A stretch of DNA of 50,592 bases from NCBI GenBank assembly GCA_946411525.1, contig CAMKEI010000010.1:1-50592 (forward strand), in the 5' to 3' direction. The position numbers and the translations under genes were made by a program. The first letter of the stretch is position 1, and the number at the start of each line of letters is the position of its first letter. This document shows positions 20,901 to 31,939 of the stretch, one piece after another. The DNA comes from an uncultured Clostridia bacterium. Its GTDB lineage: Bacteria; Bacillota; Clostridia; Christensenellales; Aristaeellaceae. Below the pieces are notes generated by a model. The model did no database searches and was not told the origin of the DNA. It saw only the letters and a list, made by a program, of their open reading frames with translations.

Positions 20901-23900
20901 TCACTTAAAGTACTTCACGGCAGATTCGAACATTCTGATGTCGTAGTTGCCGGGCACATTCTTATACAGATCTTTGCCGACCCGCTCGCTGTGGCCCATC
21001 TTGCCGAAGACGCGGCCGTCCGGACTGGTGATACCCTCGATGGCGAACAGGCTGCCGTTCGGGTTGAAGCGCAGGTCCATCGTCGGCTGATCTTCCAGAT
21101 CCACATACTGGGTGGCGATCTGTCCCTTCGCCGCCAGCTCGCGGATCAGGCTCTCCTCCGCCAGGAACCGGCCTTCGCCGTGGCTGATCGGCACGCTGTA
21201 AACCGCACCGACCTCGGCGCCGCGCAGCCAGGGACTCAGGTTGCTGGCTACCCGGGTACGAACAATGCGGCTCTGGTGGCGGCCGATCGTGTTGAACGTC
21301 AGGGTCGGGCAGTGCTCGTCGGTCTCCAGGATTTTCCCGAAGGGTACCAGGCCAAGCTTGATCAAGGCCTGGAAGCCGTTGCAGATACCGCACATGAGGC
21401 CGTCCCGTTTGTCCAGCAGGTCCGTAACCGCCTCGCTGATCCCCTTGTTCCGGAAGAACGCGATGATGAACTTCGCGCTGCCATCCGGCTCGTCACCTCC
21501 GGAAAAACCGCCGGGAATAAAAATCATCTGGCTTTCACGTACTTTGGCCGAGAAGATTTCCGCACTGCGGGCGATCTCCCCTGCCGTCCGGTTCCGGACC
21601 ACGAAGATCTCCGCCTCGGCGCCGGCGTCTTCCACGGCCCGGGCGCTGTCGATCTCGCAGTTGGTGCCGGGGAAGGCCGGGATCAGCACCTTCGGTTTCG
21701 CAATGCGGACCGCCGGAGCTTTCCAGTCTTTCGCCGTAAAGGTAAAGGTTTCGGTCCGGTCCGCTTTCCGGGCCGCCGGCCAGCAGGCGTCCGCCTCGGC
21801 GCGGTCTTCAAGGGACCATTCCGGATTCAGGGTCGGATACACTTTTTCGAGCTTGTCCCGGCCGATGGCACGGAGTTCCTTCACGTCCGCGGTCTGTCCG
21901 CGCCAGGTCAGCACAGGCGCTTCGATCACGGTACCGAGCTTCTTCCCGATGCCGAGATCTTCGGTTGTTTCCGCAATGAAGCTTCCGTAAAGGACCTCCG
22001 CCAGCTCGCTGAGCTCAAGACTGTCTTCGAACGCGAAGCCCAGGCCGTTGCCCAGCGCCATCTTCAGCACGGAAGCCAGGGCGCCGCCGGTCTCCGGCGT
22101 ACGGCAGGAGACGATCTTTCCGCCGCGGATCAGTTCTGTCACCCGGCTGTAAAGCGTCAGCAGGGATTCCGTTCTCGGGATACCCTGTTCGTCATATTCC
22201 GGCTCCAGCACGGTCACTATGTGACCGGCCTTCTTGAACTCAGGGGAGATAATGTCTTCGGTCTTCGCCGTGGTCACCGCGAAGGAGACCAGCGTGGGCG
22301 GCACGTCCAGCTTCTCAAAGGAACCGGACATGGAGTCCTTGCCGCCGATGGCGCCGATACCCAGGTTCATCTGGGCCTCAAAAGCTCCCAGCAGGGCAGC
22401 CAGGGGCTTGCCCCAGCGTTTTCCGTCCGTACCGGGTTTCTCAAAATATTCCTGGAATGTCAGGTACACGTCCTCAAAAGCCGCGCCGGTCGCAATCAGC
22501 TTGGTGACAGAATCCACCACCGCAAGATACGCCCCGTGCCAGGGACTGAAGGAAGTCAGTACCGGATCGTAGCCCCAGGCCATCAGGGAGCAGTCGTCTG
22601 TATGTCCCTTTTCGAGGCTGATTTTCTGCACCATCGCCTGAATGGGGGTCAGCTGATTCTTTCCGCCGAAGGGCATGAGCACTGTACCCGCGCCGATGGT
22701 GGAGTCGAACCGTTCGCTCAGGCCCCGGCGGGAGCAGACCGCCAGGTCGGCGACAGTGTTTTTCAGATATTCAACAAAGTCCGCCGGCGCCTGCTTCGGC
22801 AGATCCGAAACGGGGCGGGAGGCCGCCGGGGTGATCGCCGTGTGCTTGGGCGCGCCGTTGGAGTTCAGGAATTCGCGGCTGATGTCCACAATGGTCTTTC
22901 CGTTCCAGACCATGGTCAGGCGGGGATCCTCCTTCACCTTTGCCACGATGCAGGCCTGCAGGTTCTCTTCCGCCGCCAGGGCCAGGAAAGCGTCCGCGTC
23001 TTCCGCAGCCACGACCACAGCCATGCGCTCCTGGCTCTCGGAGATGGCCAGTTCCGTGCCGTCCAGGCCTTCATATTTCTTCGGCACCGCATTCAGGTCG
23101 ATATCCAGGCCGTCCGCCAGTTCGCCGATGGCGACGCTGACGCCGCCCGCGCCGAAGTCATTGCAGCGCTTGATGAGCTTCGTCGCCTTCGGGTTGCGGA
23201 ACAGCCGCTGCAGCTTGCGCTCCTCGGGCGCGTTGCCCTTCTGGACCTCCGCGCCGCAGGTCTCCACGCTGTGGGCGTTATGGGCCTTGGAGGAACCCGT
23301 CGCGCCGCCGATGCCGTCGCGGCCGGTGGAGCCGCCCAGCAGGATCACCACGTCCCCGGGAGCGGGGCGTTCCCGGCGGACATTTTCCGCCGGCGCCGCG
23401 GCGATCACCGCGCCGATCTCCATGCGCTTGGCGGCGTAGCCGGGATGGTATACTTCGTCCACAATACCGGTCGCCAGGCCGATCTGGTTGCCGTAGGAGG
23501 CATAGCCGGCCGCGGCCGTGGTCACCAGCTTGCGCTGGGGCAGTTTGCCGGGGATCGTTTCGGAAACGGGTCGGGTCGGGTCCGCCGCGCCGGTCACGCG
23601 CATGGCGCCGTAGACATAGGCCCGGCCGCTCAGCGGATCGCGGATCGCGCCGCCGATGCAGGTCGCCGCGCCGCCGAAAGGCTCGATCTCCGTGGGATGG
23701 TTATGCGTCTCGTTCTTGAACAGCAGCAGCCAGGGTTCCTTCACCCCGTCCCGCTCCACATCCATCTTCACCGTGCAGGCGTTGATCTCTTCGCTCTCGT
23801 CCAGCTTGTCTAGCTTTCCGTGCTTCTTCAGGTATTTCACCGCCACGGTGGCAAGGTCCATCAGGCACACGGGCTTCTTTTCCCGGCCCAGCTCGGCGCG

Positions 23901-24656
23901 TACGTCCATGTAGCGCTTCCAGGACTTCTCCAGCACCGGATCCTCAAAACTGACGCTTTCGATCTCCGTCAGGAAAGTGGTATGACGGCAGTGGTCGCTC
24001 CAGTAGGTATCCAGCATCCGGATCTCCGTAATGGTGGGTTCCCGGCCTTCCGCCCTGAAATAGGACTGGCAGAATGCGATATCGTCCGCGTCCATGGCCA
24101 AGCCCAGGTCGTTCACGAGCTTTTCCAGGCCCGCCCGGTCCAGGGCGGTGAAGCCTTCCAGCGTCGCCACCTCGGTGGGCACTGCGTACTCGGTCTTCAG
24201 GGTTTCCGGCATGTCCAGGGAAGCCTCCCGGGCTTCCACCGGGTTGATCACATACTTCTTGATCTCGGCGATTTCTTCAGCGGAGAGGCTGCCGTAGAGC
24301 AGGTAGACCTTCGCGCTGCGCACGGGGGGCCGCTCGCCCTGGGAAAGGAACTGGATGCACTGGGCAGCGGAATCCGCCCGCTGGTCAAACTGGCCGGGCA
24401 GGTATTCCACCGCGAACACGGCGGCTGCGCCTTCCGCGGAGATTTCCGGGAAGGTATCGTCCAGCTGGGGCTCGGAAAACACTTCCCGCACCGCCAGGGA
24501 GAACAGGTCTTCCGCGATGTTTTCCGCGTCGTAGCGGTTCAGCAGGCGGACCTTTTCCAGGCCTTTGATGCCCAGGAACTTTCTCGCGTCCGCCAGCAGC
24601 GCCCGGGCTTCATTGTCCAGGCCGGGCTTTTTTTCAACGAAGATTCTGTAAACCAT
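20901..24656 (-). CDS. purL: Phosphoribosylformylglycinamidine synthase, single chain
   Basis: A 1251-residue FGAM synthase fusing synthetase and glutaminase. It converts FGAR, ATP and glutamine to FGAM. The N-terminal PurS-like part leads to the DTYWSDHCRHTTF signature (~residue 215), two AIR-synthase-type halves (NETHNHPTEIEPFGGAATC; GGKDSMSGSF), and a class I glutamine amidotransferase near 1000-1251 with the PAFPGTNCE start, nucleophile Cys in MCGICNGFQ and the SHGEGRF His. Length and layout fit the clade II PurL of Clostridia and streptococci. AGGAGCAGATAT precedes the ATG. It follows purD by 24 bp. Confidence 0.95.
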   Translation of the reverse strand: MVYRIFVEKKPGLDNEARALLADARKFLGIKGLEKVRLLNRYDAENIAEDLFSLAVREVFSEPQLDDTFPEISAEGAAAVFAVEYLPGQFDQRADSAAQCIQFLSQGERPPVRSAKVYLLYGSLSAEEIAEIKKYVINPVEAREASLDMPETLKTEYAVPTEVATLEGFTALDRAGLEKLVNDLGLAMDADDIAFCQSYFRAEGREPTITEIRMLDTYWSDHCRHTTFLTEIESVSFEDPVLEKSWKRYMDVRAELGREKKPVCLMDLATVAVKYLKKHGKLDKLDESEEINACTVKMDVERDGVKEPWLLLFKNETHNHPTEIEPFGGAATCIGGAIRDPLSGRAYVYGAMRVTGAADPTRPVSETIPGKLPQRKLVTTAAAGYASYGNQIGLATGIVDEVYHPGYAAKRMEIGAVIAAAPAENVRRERPAPGDVVILLGGSTGRDGIGGATGSSKAHNAHSVETCGAEVQKGNAPEERKLQRLFRNPKATKLIKRCNDFGAGGVSVAIGELADGLDIDLNAVPKKYEGLDGTELAISESQERMAVVVAAEDADAFLALAAEENLQACIVAKVKEDPRLTMVWNGKTIVDISREFLNSNGAPKHTAITPAASRPVSDLPKQAPADFVEYLKNTVADLAVCSRRGLSERFDSTIGAGTVLMPFGGKNQLTPIQAMVQKISLEKGHTDDCSLMAWGYDPVLTSFSPWHGAYLAVVDSVTKLIATGAAFEDVYLTFQEYFEKPGTDGKRWGKPLAALLGAFEAQMNLGIGAIGGKDSMSGSFEKLDVPPTLVSFAVTTAKTEDIISPEFKKAGHIVTVLEPEYDEQGIPRTESLLTLYSRVTELIRGGKIVSCRTPETGGALASVLKMALGNGLGFAFEDSLELSELAEVLYGSFIAETTEDLGIGKKLGTVIEAPVLTWRGQTADVKELRAIGRDKLEKVYPTLNPEWSLEDRAEADACWPAARKADRTETFTFTAKDWKAPAVRIAKPKVLIPAFPGTNCEIDSARAVEDAGAEAEIFVVRNRTAGEIARSAEIFSAKVRESQMIFIPGGFSGGDEPDGSAKFIIAFFRNKGISEAVTDLLDKRDGLMCGICNGFQALIKLGLVPFGKILETDEHCPTLTFNTIGRHQSRIVRTRVASNLSPWLRGAEVGAVYSVPISHGEGRFLAEESLIRELAAKGQIATQYVDLEDQPTMDLRFNPNGSLFAIEGITSPDGRVFGKMGHSERVGKDLYKNVPGNYDIRMFESAVKYFK

Positions 24657-24680: not shown

Positions 24681-25943
24681 TTATTTTGCGGCAAGCGCCC
24701 TTGCGCCGATGTCCCGTCTGCAGTACTTGCTGCCGAATGTGATCCTGTCAGCCATGGCGTAGGCTTCTTTTACGGCGTCCGCCAGGGTATCCGCCACTGC
24801 GGTAACGCCGAGCACGCGGCCGCCGGAGGTCAGCAGCTTACCGTCCGCCAGCTTCGCACCGGCTACATAGACATGTTCCTGCACATCCGCGGGGACCGTG
24901 ATCTCATAACCTTTTTCATAACTGAGCGGATAGCCTTTGGAGGCAAGCACCACGCAGCAGGCGTTGGCGTCTTTGAACTTCACTTCGCAGTCCGCCAGGG
25001 TGCCGCTGGTCACCGCCTGCATCACCGTCAGCAGGTCGCTCTCCAGCAGGGGCAGTACCACCTGTGTCTCCGGATCGCCGAACCGGCAGTTGTACTCGAT
25101 CACTTTCGGACCGTCTTTCGTAACCATCAGCCCGAAATAAAGGCAGCCGCGGAATTCCCGGCCCTCCGCCTTCATCGCCCGGATTGTCGGCAGGAAGATC
25201 GTATCCATGCAGGTCTTCGCCACCGCGTCCGTATAGAAGGGATTCGGCGCGACGGTGCCCATGCCGCCAGTATTCGGGCCTTTGTCGCCATCCTCCGCCC
25301 GCTTATGATCCATGCTGGAAACCATGGGCTTCACGGTGGTGCCGTCGGTAAAAGCGAGCACGGAGACTTCGGGGCCTTCCAGGTATTCCTCGATAACGAT
25401 CTGATCGCCGCTCCTGCCGAACTTCTTGTCCTCCATGATCTCACGCACGGCGTTCTGCGCCTCTTCCCGGGTCATGGCCACGGTCACGCCCTTGCCCAGG
25501 GCCAGGCCGTCCGCCTTCACCACGGTCGGGATCGGAGAGGTTTCCAGGTATTCCAGCGCTTTTTTCGGATCGGAGAAGACTTCGTAGGCAGCCGTGGGGA
25601 TGCCGTACTTCTTCATCAGGTTCTTGGAGAAAACCTTGCTGCCTTCGATGATGGCGGCGTTCGCCCGGGGACCGAAGCACGGGATGCCTTCCGCTTCCAG
25701 CGCGTCCACGCATCCCAGCACCAGCGGATCATCCGGCGCGACGACGGCGTAGTCGATCTTCGTCGTCTTCGCGAAGGCCGTGATGCCGTCGATGTCCGTT
25801 GCTTTAACGTCCACGCAGGTCGCGTCCGCCGCGATGCCGCCGTTGCCCGGCAGGGCGTAGATCGTTTCCACAGACGGATTCTGTTTCAGTTTCTTGATGA
25901 TGGTGTGTTCACGGCCGCCGCCGCCGACAACAAGGATATTCAT
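24681..25943 (-). CDS. purD: Phosphoribosylamine--glycine ligase
   Basis: A 420-residue ATP-grasp enzyme making GAR from phosphoribosylamine and glycine. It begins MNILVVGGGGREH, then has PGNGGIA, the ATP-grasp VVKADGLALGKGV strand, NTGGMG and the FGDPETQ metal site. The ribosome site AAAGGAAG is about 12 bases from the ATG, a wider gap than its neighbours. It is preceded by a 157-bp gap with an AT-rich inverted-repeat element. Confidence 0.96.
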   Translation of the reverse strand: MNILVVGGGGREHTIIKKLKQNPSVETIYALPGNGGIAADATCVDVKATDIDGITAFAKTTKIDYAVVAPDDPLVLGCVDALEAEGIPCFGPRANAAIIEGSKVFSKNLMKKYGIPTAAYEVFSDPKKALEYLETSPIPTVVKADGLALGKGVTVAMTREEAQNAVREIMEDKKFGRSGDQIVIEEYLEGPEVSVLAFTDGTTVKPMVSSMDHKRAEDGDKGPNTGGMGTVAPNPFYTDAVAKTCMDTIFLPTIRAMKAEGREFRGCLYFGLMVTKDGPKVIEYNCRFGDPETQVVLPLLESDLLTVMQAVTSGTLADCEVKFKDANACCVVLASKGYPLSYEKGYEITVPADVQEHVYVAGAKLADGKLLTSGGRVLGVTAVADTLADAVKEAYAMADRITFGSKYCRRDIGARALAAK

Positions 25944-26100: not shown

Positions 26101-27285
26101 TTAATGATGGAACAGCCTCATGTGGGTGAACGCCATGGTCATGCCATACTTGTCGCAGCATTCGATGACCGCGTCGTCACGGATGGATCCGCCGGGTTCG
26201 GCGATGTACTTGACGCCGCTGCGGTAGGCACGCTCGATGTTGTCGCTGAAGGGGAAGAACGCGTCGGAACCCAGGGCTACATTCTGCCGGGTGCTCAGGA
26301 AAGCTTTCTTCTCCGCCTCGGTCAGGGGAGCGGGGCGGGCAGTGAAATACTTCTGCCAGTTGCCGTCCGCGCAGACATCCTCCTCGTTCTGGTTAATATA
26401 TCCGTCAATAACGTTGTCGCGCTCCGGCCGGCCCAGATCGTCACGGAAGGGCAGATTCAGAACCTTTTCGTGCTGGCGCAGGAACCAGGTGTCCGCCTTG
26501 GAGCCCGCCAGGCGCGTGCAATGGATGCGGCTCTGCTGGCCGGCACCGACGCCGATGGCCTGGCCGTCCACCGCGTAGCACACGGAGTTGGACTGGGTGT
26601 ACTTCAGGGTGATCAGGGCAACAATCAAGTCGCGGGCAGCGGAATCCGGCAGGTCCCTGGTCTTCGTCACGATATCCGAGAGCAGCTCCCGATTGATCTC
26701 AAAGTTGTTGCGGCCCTGCTCAAAAGTGATGCCGAAAACCTGCTTGGTTTCCTGCACTTCGGGTATATAGTCCGGATCGATTTCCACGATGTTGTAATTT
26801 CCCTTGCGCTTTGTCTTCAGGATTTCCAGGGCTTCGGGCTCATAGCCGGGCGCGATGACACCGTCCGATACTTCCCGCTTGAGCATTTTCGCGGTGGTCA
26901 CGTCACATACGTCACTCATGGCAACCCAGTCGCCGAAGGAACACATCCGGTCCGTGCCGCGGGCACGGGCGTAAGCGCAGGCCAGGGGTGAATCGTCCAG
27001 ACCTTCGATATCGTCCACAAAGCAGGCCTTCTTCAGATCAGCGGACAGCGGGATGCCGACCGCCGCCGAAGTGGGGCTCACATGCTTGAAGCTGGTCACC
27101 GCAGGCATGCCCAGAGCAGCCTTCAGTTCCTTTACCAGCTGCCAGCTGTTGAAAGCATCCAGGAAGTTGATATAGCCAGGACGGCCGGACAGGATTCTGA
27201 TCGGCAGTTCGCCGCCGTCCTTCATGTAGATCTTCGCGGGTTTCTGGTTGGGGTTGCAGCCGTACTTGAGTTCGAATTCTTTCAT
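26101..27285 (-). CDS. Stand-alone AICAR formyltransferase (PurH C-terminal activity only)
   Basis: A 394-residue AICAR transformylase that transfers the formyl group of 10-formyl-THF to AICAR, giving FAICAR. It starts with LKYGCNPNQKPA and contains TSFKHVSPTSAA (Lys-His catalytic pair), GDWVAMSD, YTQSNSVCYA, GAGQQSRIHC and GSDAFFPF, all AICARFT hallmarks. The ~200-residue MGS-like IMP cyclohydrolase half of bifunctional PurH is missing. The upstream PurO-type gene supplies that step. AAGGAGACC selects the ATG at 27285. Confidence 0.92.
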   Translation of the reverse strand: MKEFELKYGCNPNQKPAKIYMKDGGELPIRILSGRPGYINFLDAFNSWQLVKELKAALGMPAVTSFKHVSPTSAAVGIPLSADLKKACFVDDIEGLDDSPLACAYARARGTDRMCSFGDWVAMSDVCDVTTAKMLKREVSDGVIAPGYEPEALEILKTKRKGNYNIVEIDPDYIPEVQETKQVFGITFEQGRNNFEINRELLSDIVTKTRDLPDSAARDLIVALITLKYTQSNSVCYAVDGQAIGVGAGQQSRIHCTRLAGSKADTWFLRQHEKVLNLPFRDDLGRPERDNVIDGYINQNEEDVCADGNWQKYFTARPAPLTEAEKKAFLSTRQNVALGSDAFFPFSDNIERAYRSGVKYIAEPGGSIRDDAVIECCDKYGMTMAFTHMRLFHH

Positions 27286-27299
27286 GGTTCCGGTCTCCT

Positions 27300-28019
27300 T
27301 CACTTATTTTTGTTTACCAGACGGTTCTCCGACGCACCGGTCTTCAGGTCCACATAGCGCACATAAAGGCTGATTCTGTTCTGTTCGTTCAGATTCTTCC
27401 ACAGCACATCCGTCATCTCGTCGATGTCGTTGCAGACCGCGATACGTTCCGGCTCGCCCTGGAAGGTAGGGATCGGGTTTCCGTCACACACATAAGTGTG
27501 GATGAAGTGGCCCAGGCCGTTCAGCGGCGCATAGCTGTATGTGAAGCGATTGCAGGCGGAGCCTTCCGCATCAGCACTCTTCAGAATGCTCATCTGATAG
27601 GTAAAGTCTCCGTCGCCGAAGGTCAGCATACCGCTGATGCGGGGCGTGAAATTCGGGCCGTCCGGCTCAAATTCCCGGCTTTCCAGCGCTACAGAAAAGG
27701 TCCTTCCTTCCTTCAGGCCATCGTAAACGGTATCAGTCTGGTTGCCGTTAGTCACGATCAGGTTGTTCTTATACGCACGGATCGCGGCGTAGATAATCAG
27801 GGAGGGGTCCTGAACCTTCGCAGCGTCAAAGGGCTCCGTAAACACTTCACCGTTTTTTTCGGTAAAAATACGGTTGCGGCTGTTGTCGCTGCGGCCCATG
27901 ATAAAATAGGCGGTCATGGCCTTCGCGCCGTCCGGCGTCTTGCCGATAATGATGCCGCGGCCGGGATAGGTGTTATCCTTCAGCAGTTCCTCGGGAGTGT
28001 TGATTCTGTAGATGTCCAT
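27300..28019 (-). CDS. purO: IMP cyclohydrolase, PurO type
   Basis: A 239-residue protein of the PurO/IMP_cyclohyd family (Pfam PF07826), known first from archaea; it closes FAICAR to IMP. Recognisable parts are YPGRGIIIGKTPDG, AYFIMGRSDNSRNR, DPSLIIYAA and FTPRISG. It directly precedes the AICAR transformylase, 14 bp apart, so the two proteins together replace bifunctional PurH. AAGGAGGG before the ATG at 28019 gives the start. The family call is from memory of its signatures. Confidence 0.87.
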   Translation of the reverse strand: MDIYRINTPEELLKDNTYPGRGIIIGKTPDGAKAMTAYFIMGRSDNSRNRIFTEKNGEVFTEPFDAAKVQDPSLIIYAAIRAYKNNLIVTNGNQTDTVYDGLKEGRTFSVALESREFEPDGPNFTPRISGMLTFGDGDFTYQMSILKSADAEGSACNRFTYSYAPLNGLGHFIHTYVCDGNPIPTFQGEPERIAVCNDIDEMTDVLWKNLNEQNRISLYVRYVDLKTGASENRLVNKNK

Positions 28020-28105
28020 GGGAGCCCTCCTTGTTAATAATTCATCATTCACAGTTCAAAGCTGAGGATGGTTTCACCGGGAAAGAAGCAAACCGGAAGA
28101 AATAA

Positions 28106-28717
28106 TCATAATCCGGAAACGATCTCCTTTGAGATTGCTTCCACACTGCGGGGCAGGATTACCCATTCCGCCTGTTCCATGACCCGGCGCTGCAGCACTT
28201 CGGGCGTGTCACCCGGCAGTACTTCCACCGCCTTCTGGGCGATAATCTCCCCGCCGTCCGGAATCTCGTTGACAAAGTGCACGGTCGCCCCGGTCACCTT
28301 CACACCCCGGGCCAGCGCCGCCTCGTGCACCTTCAGGCCGTAAAAGCCTGCGCCGCAGAAACTCGGAATCAGGCTCGGGTGTACATTAATGATCCGCCGG
28401 GCATACAGGGTGGTGAAATCCTCCGTGAGGATGCTCAGGAAACCGGCCAGCACGATCAGATCGGTCCGGTTCTTCTCCAGCGCTTCGACCAGTTTCCCTT
28501 CAAAAGCCTTCTGGCCGCCGCAGCCCTTCTTGTTGATCTCCAATCCCTGGATCCCGGCTTTCACCGCACGCTCCATGGCATAGGTGCCGAGCCGGTCGCT
28601 GACAACCAGCGTAATCTCTCCGTCCGGGATTTCTCCCCGGGCCTTGGCGTCCAGGATTGCCTGGAGATTGGTTCCGCCTCCGGAAACCAGCACAGCGATA
28701 CGGGCTTTCTTGCTCAT
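28106..28717 (-). CDS. purN: Phosphoribosylglycinamide formyltransferase
   Basis: A 203-residue folate-dependent GAR transformylase. It starts ARIAVLVSGGGTNLQAIL and has the catalytic INVHPSLIPSFCGAGFYG (His within NVHPSLIP) and VTGATVHFVNEIPDGGEII blocks. It uses 10-formyl-THF, supplied by Fhs encoded at the end of the operon. AGAGGAAAC before the ATG at 28717 gives the start; the open frame runs 19 codons further upstream into purM. Confidence 0.95.
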   Translation of the reverse strand: MSKKARIAVLVSGGGTNLQAILDAKARGEIPDGEITLVVSDRLGTYAMERAVKAGIQGLEINKKGCGGQKAFEGKLVEALEKNRTDLIVLAGFLSILTEDFTTLYARRIINVHPSLIPSFCGAGFYGLKVHEAALARGVKVTGATVHFVNEIPDGGEIIAQKAVEVLPGDTPEVLQRRVMEQAEWVILPRSVEAISKEIVSGL

Positions 28718-28733
28718 TGTTTCCTCTTTCCGA

Positions 28734-29774
28734 TCAGACAATCGTGATCTTTTCTTCGCTTTCAGTGATCTCACCGATGATATAGGCGTCCTCTCCGTTT
28801 TCCTTCAGGATCCGCAGCGCCTTGTCTGCGTCCGCCGCAGAAACCACGATGCTCATGCCCACGCCCATATTGTAGGTGTTGAACATATCGCGCTCGGTAA
28901 TACCGCCTTTTTCAGCGATGAGACGGAAAACCGGCAGGATCCGGATTTTTGCTTTTTCGACCTTCGCACCCAGTCCGTCCGGAATGCTCCGCGGGATGTT
29001 TTCATAAAATCCGCCGCCGGTAATGTGGCTGATCCCTTTCACCGCAACTTCCTTCAGCAGGGCGAGCACCGGCTTCACGTAGATTTTCGTGGGAGTCAGC
29101 AGGGTTTCACCCAGGCTTTTCCCGCCCAGTTCCGCGACCGGCGCCTTCAGGTCCGCGTTTTCCACATCGAACACCTTGCGCACAAGGGAGAATCCGTTGG
29201 AGTGTACGCCCGTGGACGGCAGCGCGATGATGACGTCCCCGGCCCGCATGGCCTTGTTGTCAATAATCTTCGCCCTGTCCACGATACCTGTGGAATAACC
29301 GGCCAGGTCGTATTCATCCTCGGGCATCATTCCGGGATGTTCCGCGGTCTCTCCGCCGACCAGGGCGCAGCCTGCCTGTACGCAGCCTTCGCAGACCCCT
29401 TTGACAATCTGCTCAATCACCTCGGGCACGTTCTTTCCGCAGGCAATATAGTCCAGGAAAAACAGCGGCCGCGCGCCGCAGCAGATGATATCATTCACAC
29501 ACATGGCCACGCAGTCAATCCCGATGGTGTCATGTTTGTCCATCAGGAAGGCGATTTTCAGCTTAGTGCCTACGCCGTCGGTGCCGGATACCAGCACCGG
29601 TTCCTTCATACCGGCCAGATCCGGTATGAACAGTCCGCCGAATCCGCCCACATCTGAGCAGACACCGGGGATCTCTGTTCTCCGGATATGCTTCTTCATC
29701 AGCTCGACCGATCTGTAACCGGCAGTGATATCAACGCCAGCGGCGGCGTAGGCTTCGGAGCGTGAATTTTCCAT
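28734..29774 (-). CDS. purM: Phosphoribosylformylglycinamidine cyclo-ligase (AIR synthetase)
   Basis: A 346-residue PurM converting FGAM to AIR with ATP. It contains YAAAGVDITAGYRSVELMK, the LVSGTDGVGTKLKIA nucleotide site, GIDCVAMCVNDI, ALVGGETAEHPGMM and GISHITGGGFYENIPR. AAAGGAAAC precedes the ATG. A 132-bp gap with a structured repeat separates it from the purF-like gene upstream. Confidence 0.96.
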   Translation of the reverse strand: MENSRSEAYAAAGVDITAGYRSVELMKKHIRRTEIPGVCSDVGGFGGLFIPDLAGMKEPVLVSGTDGVGTKLKIAFLMDKHDTIGIDCVAMCVNDIICCGARPLFFLDYIACGKNVPEVIEQIVKGVCEGCVQAGCALVGGETAEHPGMMPEDEYDLAGYSTGIVDRAKIIDNKAMRAGDVIIALPSTGVHSNGFSLVRKVFDVENADLKAPVAELGGKSLGETLLTPTKIYVKPVLALLKEVAVKGISHITGGGFYENIPRSIPDGLGAKVEKAKIRILPVFRLIAEKGGITERDMFNTYNMGVGMSIVVSAADADKALRILKENGEDAYIIGEITESEEKITIV

Positions 29775-29906: not shown

Positions 29907-31337
29907 TCACTCGTCTTCTTCCCCGTTCCAGCAGTAAGTACACAGTTCACAGGGATCAATTCCGATCGCTTTGATGACACCTTCCAGTGTCTGGAATTCC
30001 AGCGAGGCAAAGTTAAACTTCCTGCAGATGCATTCCCGGAGCTTCTTTCCGCGCTCCGTCGTACCATCCGCGTATTCTTCAATGTGTTCGAAACCCTCCT
30101 CGCCTTCCAGTTCAAGGATCACCCGGCGGGCGATCAGCTCCAGGTCGCTGTTGGAGCGGGAGAAGTTCAGGTACTTGCAGGCATACATAATCGGCGGGCA
30201 GGCGCTGCGCATATGTACGGATTTGGCGCCGCTCTCATACAGGAACTCAACCGTTTCCCGCAGCTGGGTGCCCCGAACAATGGAGTCGTCCACAAACAGC
30301 AGGTTTTTATCCTTTATCAGCGCGTTCACCGGAATCTGCTTCATCTTGGCGATCTTATCCCGGTCCGTCTGATTGGCGGGCATGAAGCTGCGGCTCCAGG
30401 TGGGCGTGTACTTAATGAACGCCCGGGCAAAGGGGGTCCCGCTGCGGTTTGCGTAACCGATCGCGTGGGGCGTACCGGAATCCGGCACCCCACCGATGTA
30501 GTCGATCGGATCATCCCGGCCGGCTGCCCTGTCGTTGTCCGCCATGATCGCGCCGTTGCGGTAACGCATCTCTTCCACATTCACGCCCTCATAACAGGAC
30601 GTGGGATAACCGTAATAGCTCCACAGGAAGGAACAGATTTTCTTTTTCTTTCCCGGAGGCACCAGCTGAGTCATGCTGTCCGGGGTCAGTTCCACAATTT
30701 CCCCGGGACCCAGTTCACAGACGTCCTCATAACCGGTTTTGTGATAGGCAAAAGACTCAAACGCCACAGCGTAACTGTCTTCCCGCTTTCCGACCGCCAC
30801 CGGCAGCCGTCCCATGCGGTCCCGTGCGGCAATGATCGAGCCCCTGTCCGTAAGGATCAGGATCGAAGCCGTACCGACGATGGACTTCTGGGCGAAGCGG
30901 ATACCTTCAGCGAAATCGCTCTTCTGGTTGATCAGGGCGCTGAGCAGCTCCGTCTGGTTGATCCTCCCGCCGGTCATGGAGTCGAAGTGGCCGCCGCTGA
31001 AACTCAGGTACTGGTCAATCAGCTCTTCGGCGTTGTTGATAACACCGGTCATGCAGATCGCGTAGGTGCCCAGGTTGGACCGGATCAGCAGCGGCTGGGG
31101 ATCGGCGTCCGAAATGCAGCCGATGGCGGATGTGCCGCGCATCTCTTCGAAAATGTGCTCAAACTTGGTACGGAACGGCGCGTTGCAGATGTTATGGATC
31201 TTCCGCTGCAGGCCGATCTCCTCGTCCCATGCGGCCATCCCCGCCCTACGGGTGCCCAGATGGCTGTGATAGTCCACGCCGAAAAACACGTCCAGCATAC
31301 AGTCCTTTTTGGATACAATACCGAAAAAACCGCCCAT
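29907..31337 (-). CDS. Amidophosphoribosyltransferase homologue lacking the N-terminal catalytic cysteine
   Basis: A 476-residue PurF homologue. The C-terminal phosphoribosyltransferase half is intact, with LLFVDDSIVRGTQL as the PRPP loop, and CELCTYC near the end suggests the iron-sulfur cluster of Bacillus-type PurF. The N-terminal glutaminase half is recognisable, but PurF proteins need Cys as the first mature residue, and here residue 2 is Gly (MGGFFGI). AAGGAGC fixes this start, so no upstream Cys is hidden. It sits in the purF position. It may use ammonia, rely on another glutaminase, or have changed role. I recall Gly-type homologues in other Clostridia. Confidence 0.85.
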   Translation of the reverse strand: MGGFFGIVSKKDCMLDVFFGVDYHSHLGTRRAGMAAWDEEIGLQRKIHNICNAPFRTKFEHIFEEMRGTSAIGCISDADPQPLLIRSNLGTYAICMTGVINNAEELIDQYLSFSGGHFDSMTGGRINQTELLSALINQKSDFAEGIRFAQKSIVGTASILILTDRGSIIAARDRMGRLPVAVGKREDSYAVAFESFAYHKTGYEDVCELGPGEIVELTPDSMTQLVPPGKKKKICSFLWSYYGYPTSCYEGVNVEEMRYRNGAIMADNDRAAGRDDPIDYIGGVPDSGTPHAIGYANRSGTPFARAFIKYTPTWSRSFMPANQTDRDKIAKMKQIPVNALIKDKNLLFVDDSIVRGTQLRETVEFLYESGAKSVHMRSACPPIMYACKYLNFSRSNSDLELIARRVILELEGEEGFEHIEEYADGTTERGKKLRECICRKFNFASLEFQTLEGVIKAIGIDPCELCTYCWNGEEDE

Positions 31338-31353
31338 GGTTCAAAAGCTCCTT

Positions 31354-31842
31354 TTACAGTCTTTCTGTGATGCCCATGTCCTTTGCCAGCACGGCTTCCG
31401 CGTCGGCCCTGCGTTTTGCGTCCAGTTTCGCTGCCAGCTCAGCGTCCTCCACGGCCAGGATCTGCGCTGCCAGCAGCGCCGCGTTTGCCCCGCCGTTCAC
31501 CGCCACCGTCGCCACAGGGATGCCCGTGGGCATCTGAACCGTGGAAAGCAGCGCGTCCAGTCCTTCCAGGCAAGGCCCCTGGCACGGGATACCGATCACC
31601 GGAAGGGTCGTGTTCGCCGCAACGGCGCCGGCCAGATGGGCCGCCATGCCGGCAGCCGCGATGACCGCGCCGAATCCGTTCTTTCGGGCATTGACAGCAA
31701 AAGCCCGGGCTTCTTCCGGTGTGCGGTGCGCCGAATACACATGCACCTCAAAGGGAATGCCCAGGCTTCTGAGTTGATCCGTTGCTTTTTTTATCACGGG
31801 CAGGTCACTGTCACTGCCCATGATGATACCGACTTTTCTCAC
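31354..31842 (-). CDS. purE: 5-(carboxyamino)imidazole ribonucleotide mutase
   Basis: A 162-residue PurE with the family signatures VGIIMGSDSDLPV near the start and YSAHRTPEEA, then AAAGMAAHLAG. It converts N5-CAIR to CAIR (class I) or uses CO2 directly with AIR (class II); the SDLP and SAHR blocks fit class I, though no purK is in the window. The start is a GTG at 31842, nine bases after AGGAGG; the longer open frame covers the promoter. It is the first gene of the purine operon, following a strong promoter with a PurBox-like sequence. Confidence 0.92.
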   Translation of the reverse strand: MRKVGIIMGSDSDLPVIKKATDQLRSLGIPFEVHVYSAHRTPEEARAFAVNARKNGFGAVIAAAGMAAHLAGAVAANTTLPVIGIPCQGPCLEGLDALLSTVQMPTGIPVATVAVNGGANAALLAAQILAVEDAELAAKLDAKRRADAEAVLAKDMGITERL

Positions 31843-31881
31843 GGTGGAAATCCTCCTGAATACCAATTGAAAACCGCTCCC

Positions 31882-31910
31882 AATATAGCGCAAAATACGA
31901 ACATTGTCAA
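31882..31910 (-). promoter_or_regulatory. Promoter of the purine operon
   Basis: Minus strand TTGACA (31905-31910), 17-bp spacer, TATATT (31882-31887), about 40 bases before the purE GTG. The leader is short, leaving no room for a purine riboswitch. Confidence 0.88.
31893..31905 (+). promoter_or_regulatory. PurBox-like PurR site
   Basis: AAATACGAACATT on the plus strand agrees with the Gram-positive PurBox consensus AWWWCCGAACWWT at 12 of 13 positions. It lies between the -35 and -10 of the purine promoter, where PurR would repress. Known PurR sites come as two boxes about 16-17 bp apart; a second at that distance is not clear. Confidence 0.5.
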
Positions 31911-31939
31911 TTGAAAACAAAGCAAATTCATACTAATTT

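Follow-up and report, generated by a model that had tools for sequence, protein, structure and literature searches.

A PurF family without the glutaminase site in Clostridia and many other anaerobes

The purine locus and its PurF homologue

On the minus strand of the window, by which we mean the whole stretch of 50,592 nucleotides analysed, a gene at 29907..31337 encodes a PurF homologue of 476 aa, here called Gly-type, that has lost the glutaminase site and kept the PRPP site and the Fe-S cysteines. It occupies the purF slot, as a sequence-only reading of this DNA had stated: it lies between purE (31354..31920; TIGR01162, 196 bits) and purM (28734..29774; TIGR00878, 441 bits), on the strand common to purN (28106..28774; TIGR00639, 182 bits), a PurO-like IMP cyclohydrolase (27300..28052; NF003167, 55 bits, under the cut-off of 150), a stand-alone AICAR formyltransferase (26101..27303; NF005492, 682 bits), purD (24681..25943; TIGR00877, 529 bits) and a single-chain purL (20901..24656; TIGR01857, 1809 bits). 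All window features given here are on this minus strand. The cyclohydrolase is archaeal in kind and stands beside the stand-alone formyltransferase, with no bifunctional PurH.

The best solved relatives of the Gly-type protein are the Bacillus subtilis PurF structures 1ao0 and 1gph (E 1e-42). It scored 163.5 bits against the 350-bit cut-off of TIGR01134 (NCBIfam), the model of glutamine-dependent PurF, and among the Pfam models GATase_7 alone exceeded its cut-off (34.4 vs 25), GATase_6 and Pribosyltran remaining below theirs. The open reading frame begins with MGGFFGIVSKKDC, and a ribosome-binding site, AAAAGGAG, can be read from the sequence at 31348..31355, its GGAG (31348-31351) standing 10 nt 5' of the ATG, which bears out the start that had been assumed. 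Because Gly3 pairs with Gly2 of mature B. subtilis PurF in the alignment to 1ao0/1gph, Gly2 (codon 31332..31334) is at the position of the catalytic Cys1. The open frame starts just one codon 5' of the ATG (T-M-G-G), and therefore no upstream start supplies a Cys; the next Cys of the protein is, as had been noticed, at residue 13, but relatives do not conserve this Cys (they have, for example, SKHDAIAD or SRRDAISD there), and so it cannot be a replacement nucleophile in general. An alternative start, upstream or downstream, that would give an N-terminal Cys is thereby ruled out.

Relatives were sought in 293 genomes of the same class (Clostridia) at a completeness filter of 90%, with the window genome included. 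A strong relative was found in 85 of them: the window itself, one fragment at a contig edge, and 83 further genomes whose relatives share 51-76% identity. Below these the scores fell from more than 300 bits to about 180 bits, the level at which normal PurF sets in. The alignment held 84 clade rows from 83 genomes, one of which is a shortened copy of another, and 36 normal PurF rows; the contig-edge fragment and a relative that does not start with ATG, GTG or TTG were left out. At position 2, 80 clade rows have Gly, 4 have Ser and none has Cys (0/84), so that the window gene is no isolated oddity; at position 1, 35 of the 36 normal rows have Cys and one has a gap. The earlier observation was right and larger than stated, for the other glutaminase residues are gone too. 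The R-Y-x-T loop (R72, Y73, T75, G77), present in 36/36 normal rows, is deleted in 84/84 clade rows; Arg26 is replaced by Leu in 84/84; Asn102, kept in 36/36 normal rows, is Val, Ile, Thr or Leu in 84/84; and Asp127, likewise present in 36/36 normal rows, is replaced in 83/84, by Gln in the window protein, with one row (L105) keeping Asp. We take R-Y-x-T, Asn102 and Asp127 to be glutamine-site residues of PurF.

The PRPP loop and the C-terminal CxxC had been described as retained, and this holds throughout the clade. The loop, DDSIVRGT (residues 350-357; 30267..30290), keeps DDS and VRGT in 84/84 rows and I353 in 83/84, and Lys305, Arg311, Phe313, Arg321 and Lys328 (B. subtilis numbers), among them the basic residues of the flexible loop (Arg311, Arg321, Lys328), are kept in 84/84. 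Cys235 (30633..30635) and Cys387 (30177..30179), equivalents of B. subtilis PurF Cys236 and Cys382, are found in 84/84 rows each, and both cysteines of Cys466-x-x-Cys469 (29931..29942), equivalents of the C-terminal ligands, in 82/84, with gaps in the other two rows. Cys236, Cys382 and the two C-terminal cysteines of B. subtilis PurF are its Fe-S ligands, and a cluster of that type is predicted here from the same four positions.

In addition, the clade has acquired features of its own. DYHSHLGT (residues 22-29; 31251..31274) replaces the canonical LQHRGQE region, with D22, H24, S25, H26, L27 and G28 in 84/84 rows, Y23 in 83 and T29 in 81, and K309-Y310 with T311-P312-T313-W314 is found in 82-84 of the 84 rows. 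The PRPP half carries clade-specific changes (KYTPTWxRSF, Cys380 and Gln358, the residue that follows the loop, which is Gln in 84/84 clade rows vs Thr in 36/36 canonical rows), so the reaction could differ. Overall, the clade shows at least 95% identity at 133 alignment positions, and at 63 of these its commonest residue is not that of normal PurF; the Gly-type protein is therefore not decaying. The rebuilt N-domain is itself highly conserved, which speaks against simple decay and would allow a role in ammonium handling or partner docking.

Distribution and the presence of a normal PurF

A wider contig scan, which used a 24-member alignment and two patterns, returned at least 594 pattern matches, at least 562 of them relatives, a number that may include normal PurFs because one of the patterns is the shared PRPP loop. 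Among the matches listed, 80 loci that align along almost the full length of the protein were kept; position 2 in these is Gly in 71, Ser in 8 and Val in 1, the start of the Val row being uncertain and the set possibly overlapping with the 84 aligned rows. The records that hold these 80 loci are named Clostridia, Oscillospiraceae, Lachnospiraceae, Adlercreutzia, Thermophilibacter, Treponema, Planctomycetota, Acidobacteriota, Lentisphaerae, Desulfobacteraceae, Bacteroidales, Prevotella and a Lokiarchaeote, although some of the metagenome labels may be wrong. This is a large family without the glutaminase site, found in many anaerobes, with records from several bacterial phyla and the Lokiarchaeote. 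On the contig labelled Lokiarchaeota (L265), a canonical purF lies close to the Gly-type gene on the opposite strand. In a quick LG+G4 tree of 96 rows (88 clade and 8 normal), the split between Gly-type and normal PurF received an SH-aLRT value of 100.

The window genome (G000; 113 contigs, 85% complete) contains a second PurF, one of the possibilities that the sequence-only reading had raised. It is the sole PurF over the cut-off in that genome (C13:36112-37443), has the intact Cys, R-Y-x-T, Asn and Asp, and begins with a short leader followed by ECGVFG. Its gene lies directly 3' of glnA, an ANTAR-domain regulator (PF03861), gltB and gltD; asnB and guaA are close by on the opposite strand. 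The run glnA-ANTAR-gltB-gltD-Cys-type purF (L005:6247-15501, on C13) is on one strand with short gaps, like one nitrogen-controlled operon; ANTAR proteins work by antitermination. In six sources (the window, L005, L078, L157, L160 and L177), the surroundings of either purF gave no riboswitch or other regulatory RNA at the Rfam gathering threshold; the only two matches were one 5S rRNA and one tRNA at the end of the window.

Searches of the 293 genomes then covered normal PurF (E<=1e-70) and purD (E<=1e-60), PurD being the enzyme that consumes the product of PurF. Both types of PurF occur in 59 of the 85 carriers, so the Gly-type protein is not always a substitute, and the Gly-type alone occurs in 26. 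purD is present in 59/59 genomes with both types, in 170/172 with normal PurF only, in 25/26 with the Gly-type only and in 3/36 with neither, one of these three being a partial hit. Normal PurF is thus absent from 25 of the 84 purD-bearing carriers vs 3 of the 173 purD-bearing non-carriers (Fisher p 6e-11, kinship ignored). Counted over 80 carriers, the Gly-only status requires at least 15 changes on the tree and therefore recurs. It is seen in all four sampled genomes of one genus (g54), and in the single-contig genome G211, which has no PurF over the cut-off and whose complete purine operon reads purE-purC-Gly-purM-purN-purO-purB-purV-purD-purL. Among the 40 carrier loci with wide flanks, the Gly-type gene is inside the purine operon in 15 and outside it in 25; for the Gly-only loci of this set, it is in the operon in 8/25.

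With regard to contig size and breadth, a further 44 genomes were selected among the 80 named loci; 24 of them yielded no PurF above the cut-off, and all 24 have purD. However, a long-type PurF (614-646 aa, although one is truncated at 481 aa) that has the Cys and R-Y-x-T is encoded in nine of the 24, Oligosphaera ethanolica and eight more, which leaves 15 as Gly-only. The window protein has neither the Cys nor the R-Y-x-T of these nine, and also lacks their QHNRGQ and greater length. The long-type PurFs (L288-L296, from Bacteroidales-type genomes and Oligosphaera) also have the PRPP loop, score far under the TIGR01134 cut-off and are close to glmS, carB, gltBD or asnB in L288-L292 and L295. 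Bacteroides ihuae was the sole control of 14 without a PurF over that cut-off, and its PurF may thus be overlooked or given a wrong name in automatic annotation. A search for long-type PurF in the 26 and 15 Gly-only genomes gave 0/41, with 4/4 positive controls recovered (one being the query's own genome), and a long-type PurF hidden in these genomes was rejected on that basis; the search is weak for far relatives, since it detected the Cys-type PurF of the window genome only at E 4e-7, and a very diverged long-type PurF may be missed, weaker TIGR01134 matches being partly listed. For Evtepia gabavorous KLE1738 and Adlercreutzia equolifaciens DFI.6.87, both among the 15, the records show purD, no PurF over the cut-off and no long-type PurF; the E. 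gabavorous locus reads purE-Gly-purM-purN-purO-purV-purD-purL.

The neighbourhood of normal PurF was compared over about 8 kb on each side, less at contig ends, in 41 of the 59 two-type genomes and in 19 of the 172 PurF-only genomes, the latter taken from high-scoring search rows and not at random. Normal PurF is in the purine operon in 9/41 two-type vs 16/19 PurF-only genomes (Fisher 9e-6, kinship ignored); the 18 two-type genomes left out of this comparison include four (G081, G166, G169 and G175) whose two genes were known beforehand to lie near each other, within the purine operon in G081 and G166. It is instead near glnA, the ANTAR gene, gltB, gltD, asnB or carB in 16/41 vs 0/19 (Fisher 0.001, kinship ignored), three of the 16 placements resting on carB alone, and near neither gene group in 16/41 and 3/19. 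At L093, L096, L101, L106, L226, L237 and L249, the Cys-type and Gly-type purF genes are in tandem or a few genes apart, which may hint at a hetero-complex.

Proposed function and competing explanations

With the glutaminase site gone and the PRPP loop intact, the Gly-type protein most likely builds purines from free ammonia. We consider it probable, judging from sequence and genomic distribution, that it is an ammonia-dependent PRPP amidotransferase able to replace PurF, which would form 5-phosphoribosylamine (PRA) from PRPP and free NH3 and retain the old glutaminase domain as a remodelled, non-hydrolysing scaffold. In the window genome, the Gly-type enzyme would act from the purine operon, and the glutamine-dependent PurF encoded with glnA-gltB-gltD is probably for ammonia-scarce conditions; in other genomes, the Gly-type would be the only PurF. 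The ammonia-dependent reading fits best because the PRPP half is kept, the glutaminase site is lost, the protein stands in for PurF and E. coli PurF without Cys1 uses ammonia, the change of Cys1 to Ala or Ser abolishing glutamine activity and leaving ammonia usable (PMC3261824). The recurrence of the Gly-only status and the placement of normal PurF in carriers, less often in the purine operon and more often near the nitrogen genes, also speak for it. Several points tell against it, namely the clade-specific changes in the PRPP half, the normal PurF kept by 59 of 85 carriers, the position of the gene outside the purine operon in 25 of the 40 wide-flank loci, the 16 of 41 carriers whose normal PurF is near neither gene group, the lack of a regulatory RNA at the Rfam threshold near either purF in the six sources, and the one carrier row that keeps Asp127. 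Enrichment of AsnA, an ammonia-using enzyme, was considered as a sign of an ammonia habit and discarded, as asnA showed no association across the 293 genomes and is no commoner in carriers (Gly-only 17/26, both types 36/59, canonical-only 101/172).

It would be tempting to go further and see in the former glutaminase domain a dedicated ammonium-capturing device that serves as the standard start of purine synthesis across many anaerobes. In DYHSHLGT, which sits at the place of the canonical LQHRGQE segment, the invariant His-Ser-His might together with the rebuilt KYTPTW loop take up ammonium, deprotonate it and pass NH3 to PRPP. We regard this extension as speculative and rather unlikely.

The nitrogen could also come from a separate glutaminase protein that docks onto the Gly-type protein, which would still make PRA. 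The N-domain, with its invariant DYHSHLGT and no decay, could be a docking or delivery site, and the canonical and Gly-type genes adjoin or lie near each other at the seven loci named above. However, compact Gly-only operons leave no space for such a gene beside the Gly-type one, the gaps between tblastn matches being 17-49 bp (L070, L071, L076, L220), and in 9 of 25 Gly-only genomes a search limited to PurF-family proteins gave no second hit to TIGR01134 at E<=1e-6. We hold a split amidotransferase to be improbable, and of the two nitrogen sources proposed by the sequence-only reading, free ammonia is the better supported.

That reading had also suggested that, should a second PurF exist, the Gly-type protein might be a regulator or a diverged enzyme. 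Pseudo-enzymes often become regulators, and the presence of normal PurF in 59/85 carriers would suit a PRPP-binding regulator or structural partner of normal PurF that is not itself an enzyme. Yet 26 of the 85 carriers have the Gly-type only, 25 of these 26 keep purD, and a long-type PurF was found in none of the 26 or of the 15 further Gly-only genomes; the second PurF of the window genome therefore does not make the Gly-type a mere regulator. PRA can form non-enzymatically, but in Salmonella PurF-independent routes had reportedly so far given too little PRA to meet the purine need (PMC3485032). A regulatory role is, in our estimate, no more probable than a docking glutaminase.

A PRPP transferase that uses another amine acceptor and feeds a different pathway would be in line with the YTPTW stretch, Gln358 and Cys380, which flank the transferase site, and with the 25/40 loci outside the purine operon; it is very improbable, given that the Gly-type gene occupies the purF slot in complete purine operons and that purD outlives the loss of normal PurF almost only where the Gly-type is present. 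Finally, many of the assemblies consist of dozens to hundreds of contigs, the window genome is 85% complete, and of the three genomes that have purD but no PurF at all, two are 92-93% complete and may themselves reflect assembly gaps, but such gaps are ruled out as a general explanation of the Gly-only genomes by the 25/84 vs 3/173 contrast under the same completeness filter and by single-contig G211, with genus g54 (4/4) also standing against them, and the 133 conserved positions oppose a decaying duplicate, so that we give this pair of explanations hardly any weight.

Significance and relation to known systems

PurF is regarded as the enzyme that opens purine synthesis with glutamine as nitrogen donor. 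If the ammonia-dependent reading is true, many anaerobes start purines from ammonia, glutamine analogues would be poor inhibitors of the first purine step, and an apparent gap in the purine pathway is closed in genomes such as that of Evtepia gabavorous. We found no account of the bacterial Gly-type clade in the literature searched, which covered few subscription journals.

The Gly-type protein resembles PurF of the B. subtilis 1ao0/1gph type (EC 2.4.2.14) in family by sequence, PRPP loop, Fe-S ligand cysteines and operon slot, and differs from it in having no Cys1, R-Y-x-T loop, Asn102 or Asp127, in scoring under the TIGR01134 cut-off and in forming a separate clade. The proposed swap of nitrogen donor recalls the ammonia- and glutamine-dependent forms of asparagine synthetase (AsnA and AsnB) and of the NAD synthetases. 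AsnA and AsnB have unrelated folds, whereas the loss of the donor in the Gly-type falls inside one family. In lacking Cys1, the Gly-type is like the E. coli PurF Cys1 mutants, which lost glutamine use and still used ammonia (PMC3261824), but those carry one residue changed in the laboratory, whereas the Gly-type is a natural clade with a rebuilt domain.

The nearest parallel by description is the crenarchaeal PurF', a PurF paralogue without the catalytic Cys that is close to purine genes (Brown et al. 2011, PMC3261824); the Gly-type also lacks this Cys and can sit with purine genes. Many PurF' proteins have Ala or Val for the Cys, and each crenarchaeon studied also has a normal PurF (PMC3261824). 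In contrast, the Gly-type has Gly or Ser, belongs mainly to bacteria and is found without normal PurF in 26 of the 85 carriers among Clostridia. For PurF', its authors put forward ammonia dependence as a suggestion (PMC3261824). The ammonia idea has thus been proposed before, and the bacterial Gly-type clade is a variant, with which the 2011 proposal becomes testable in culturable bacteria.
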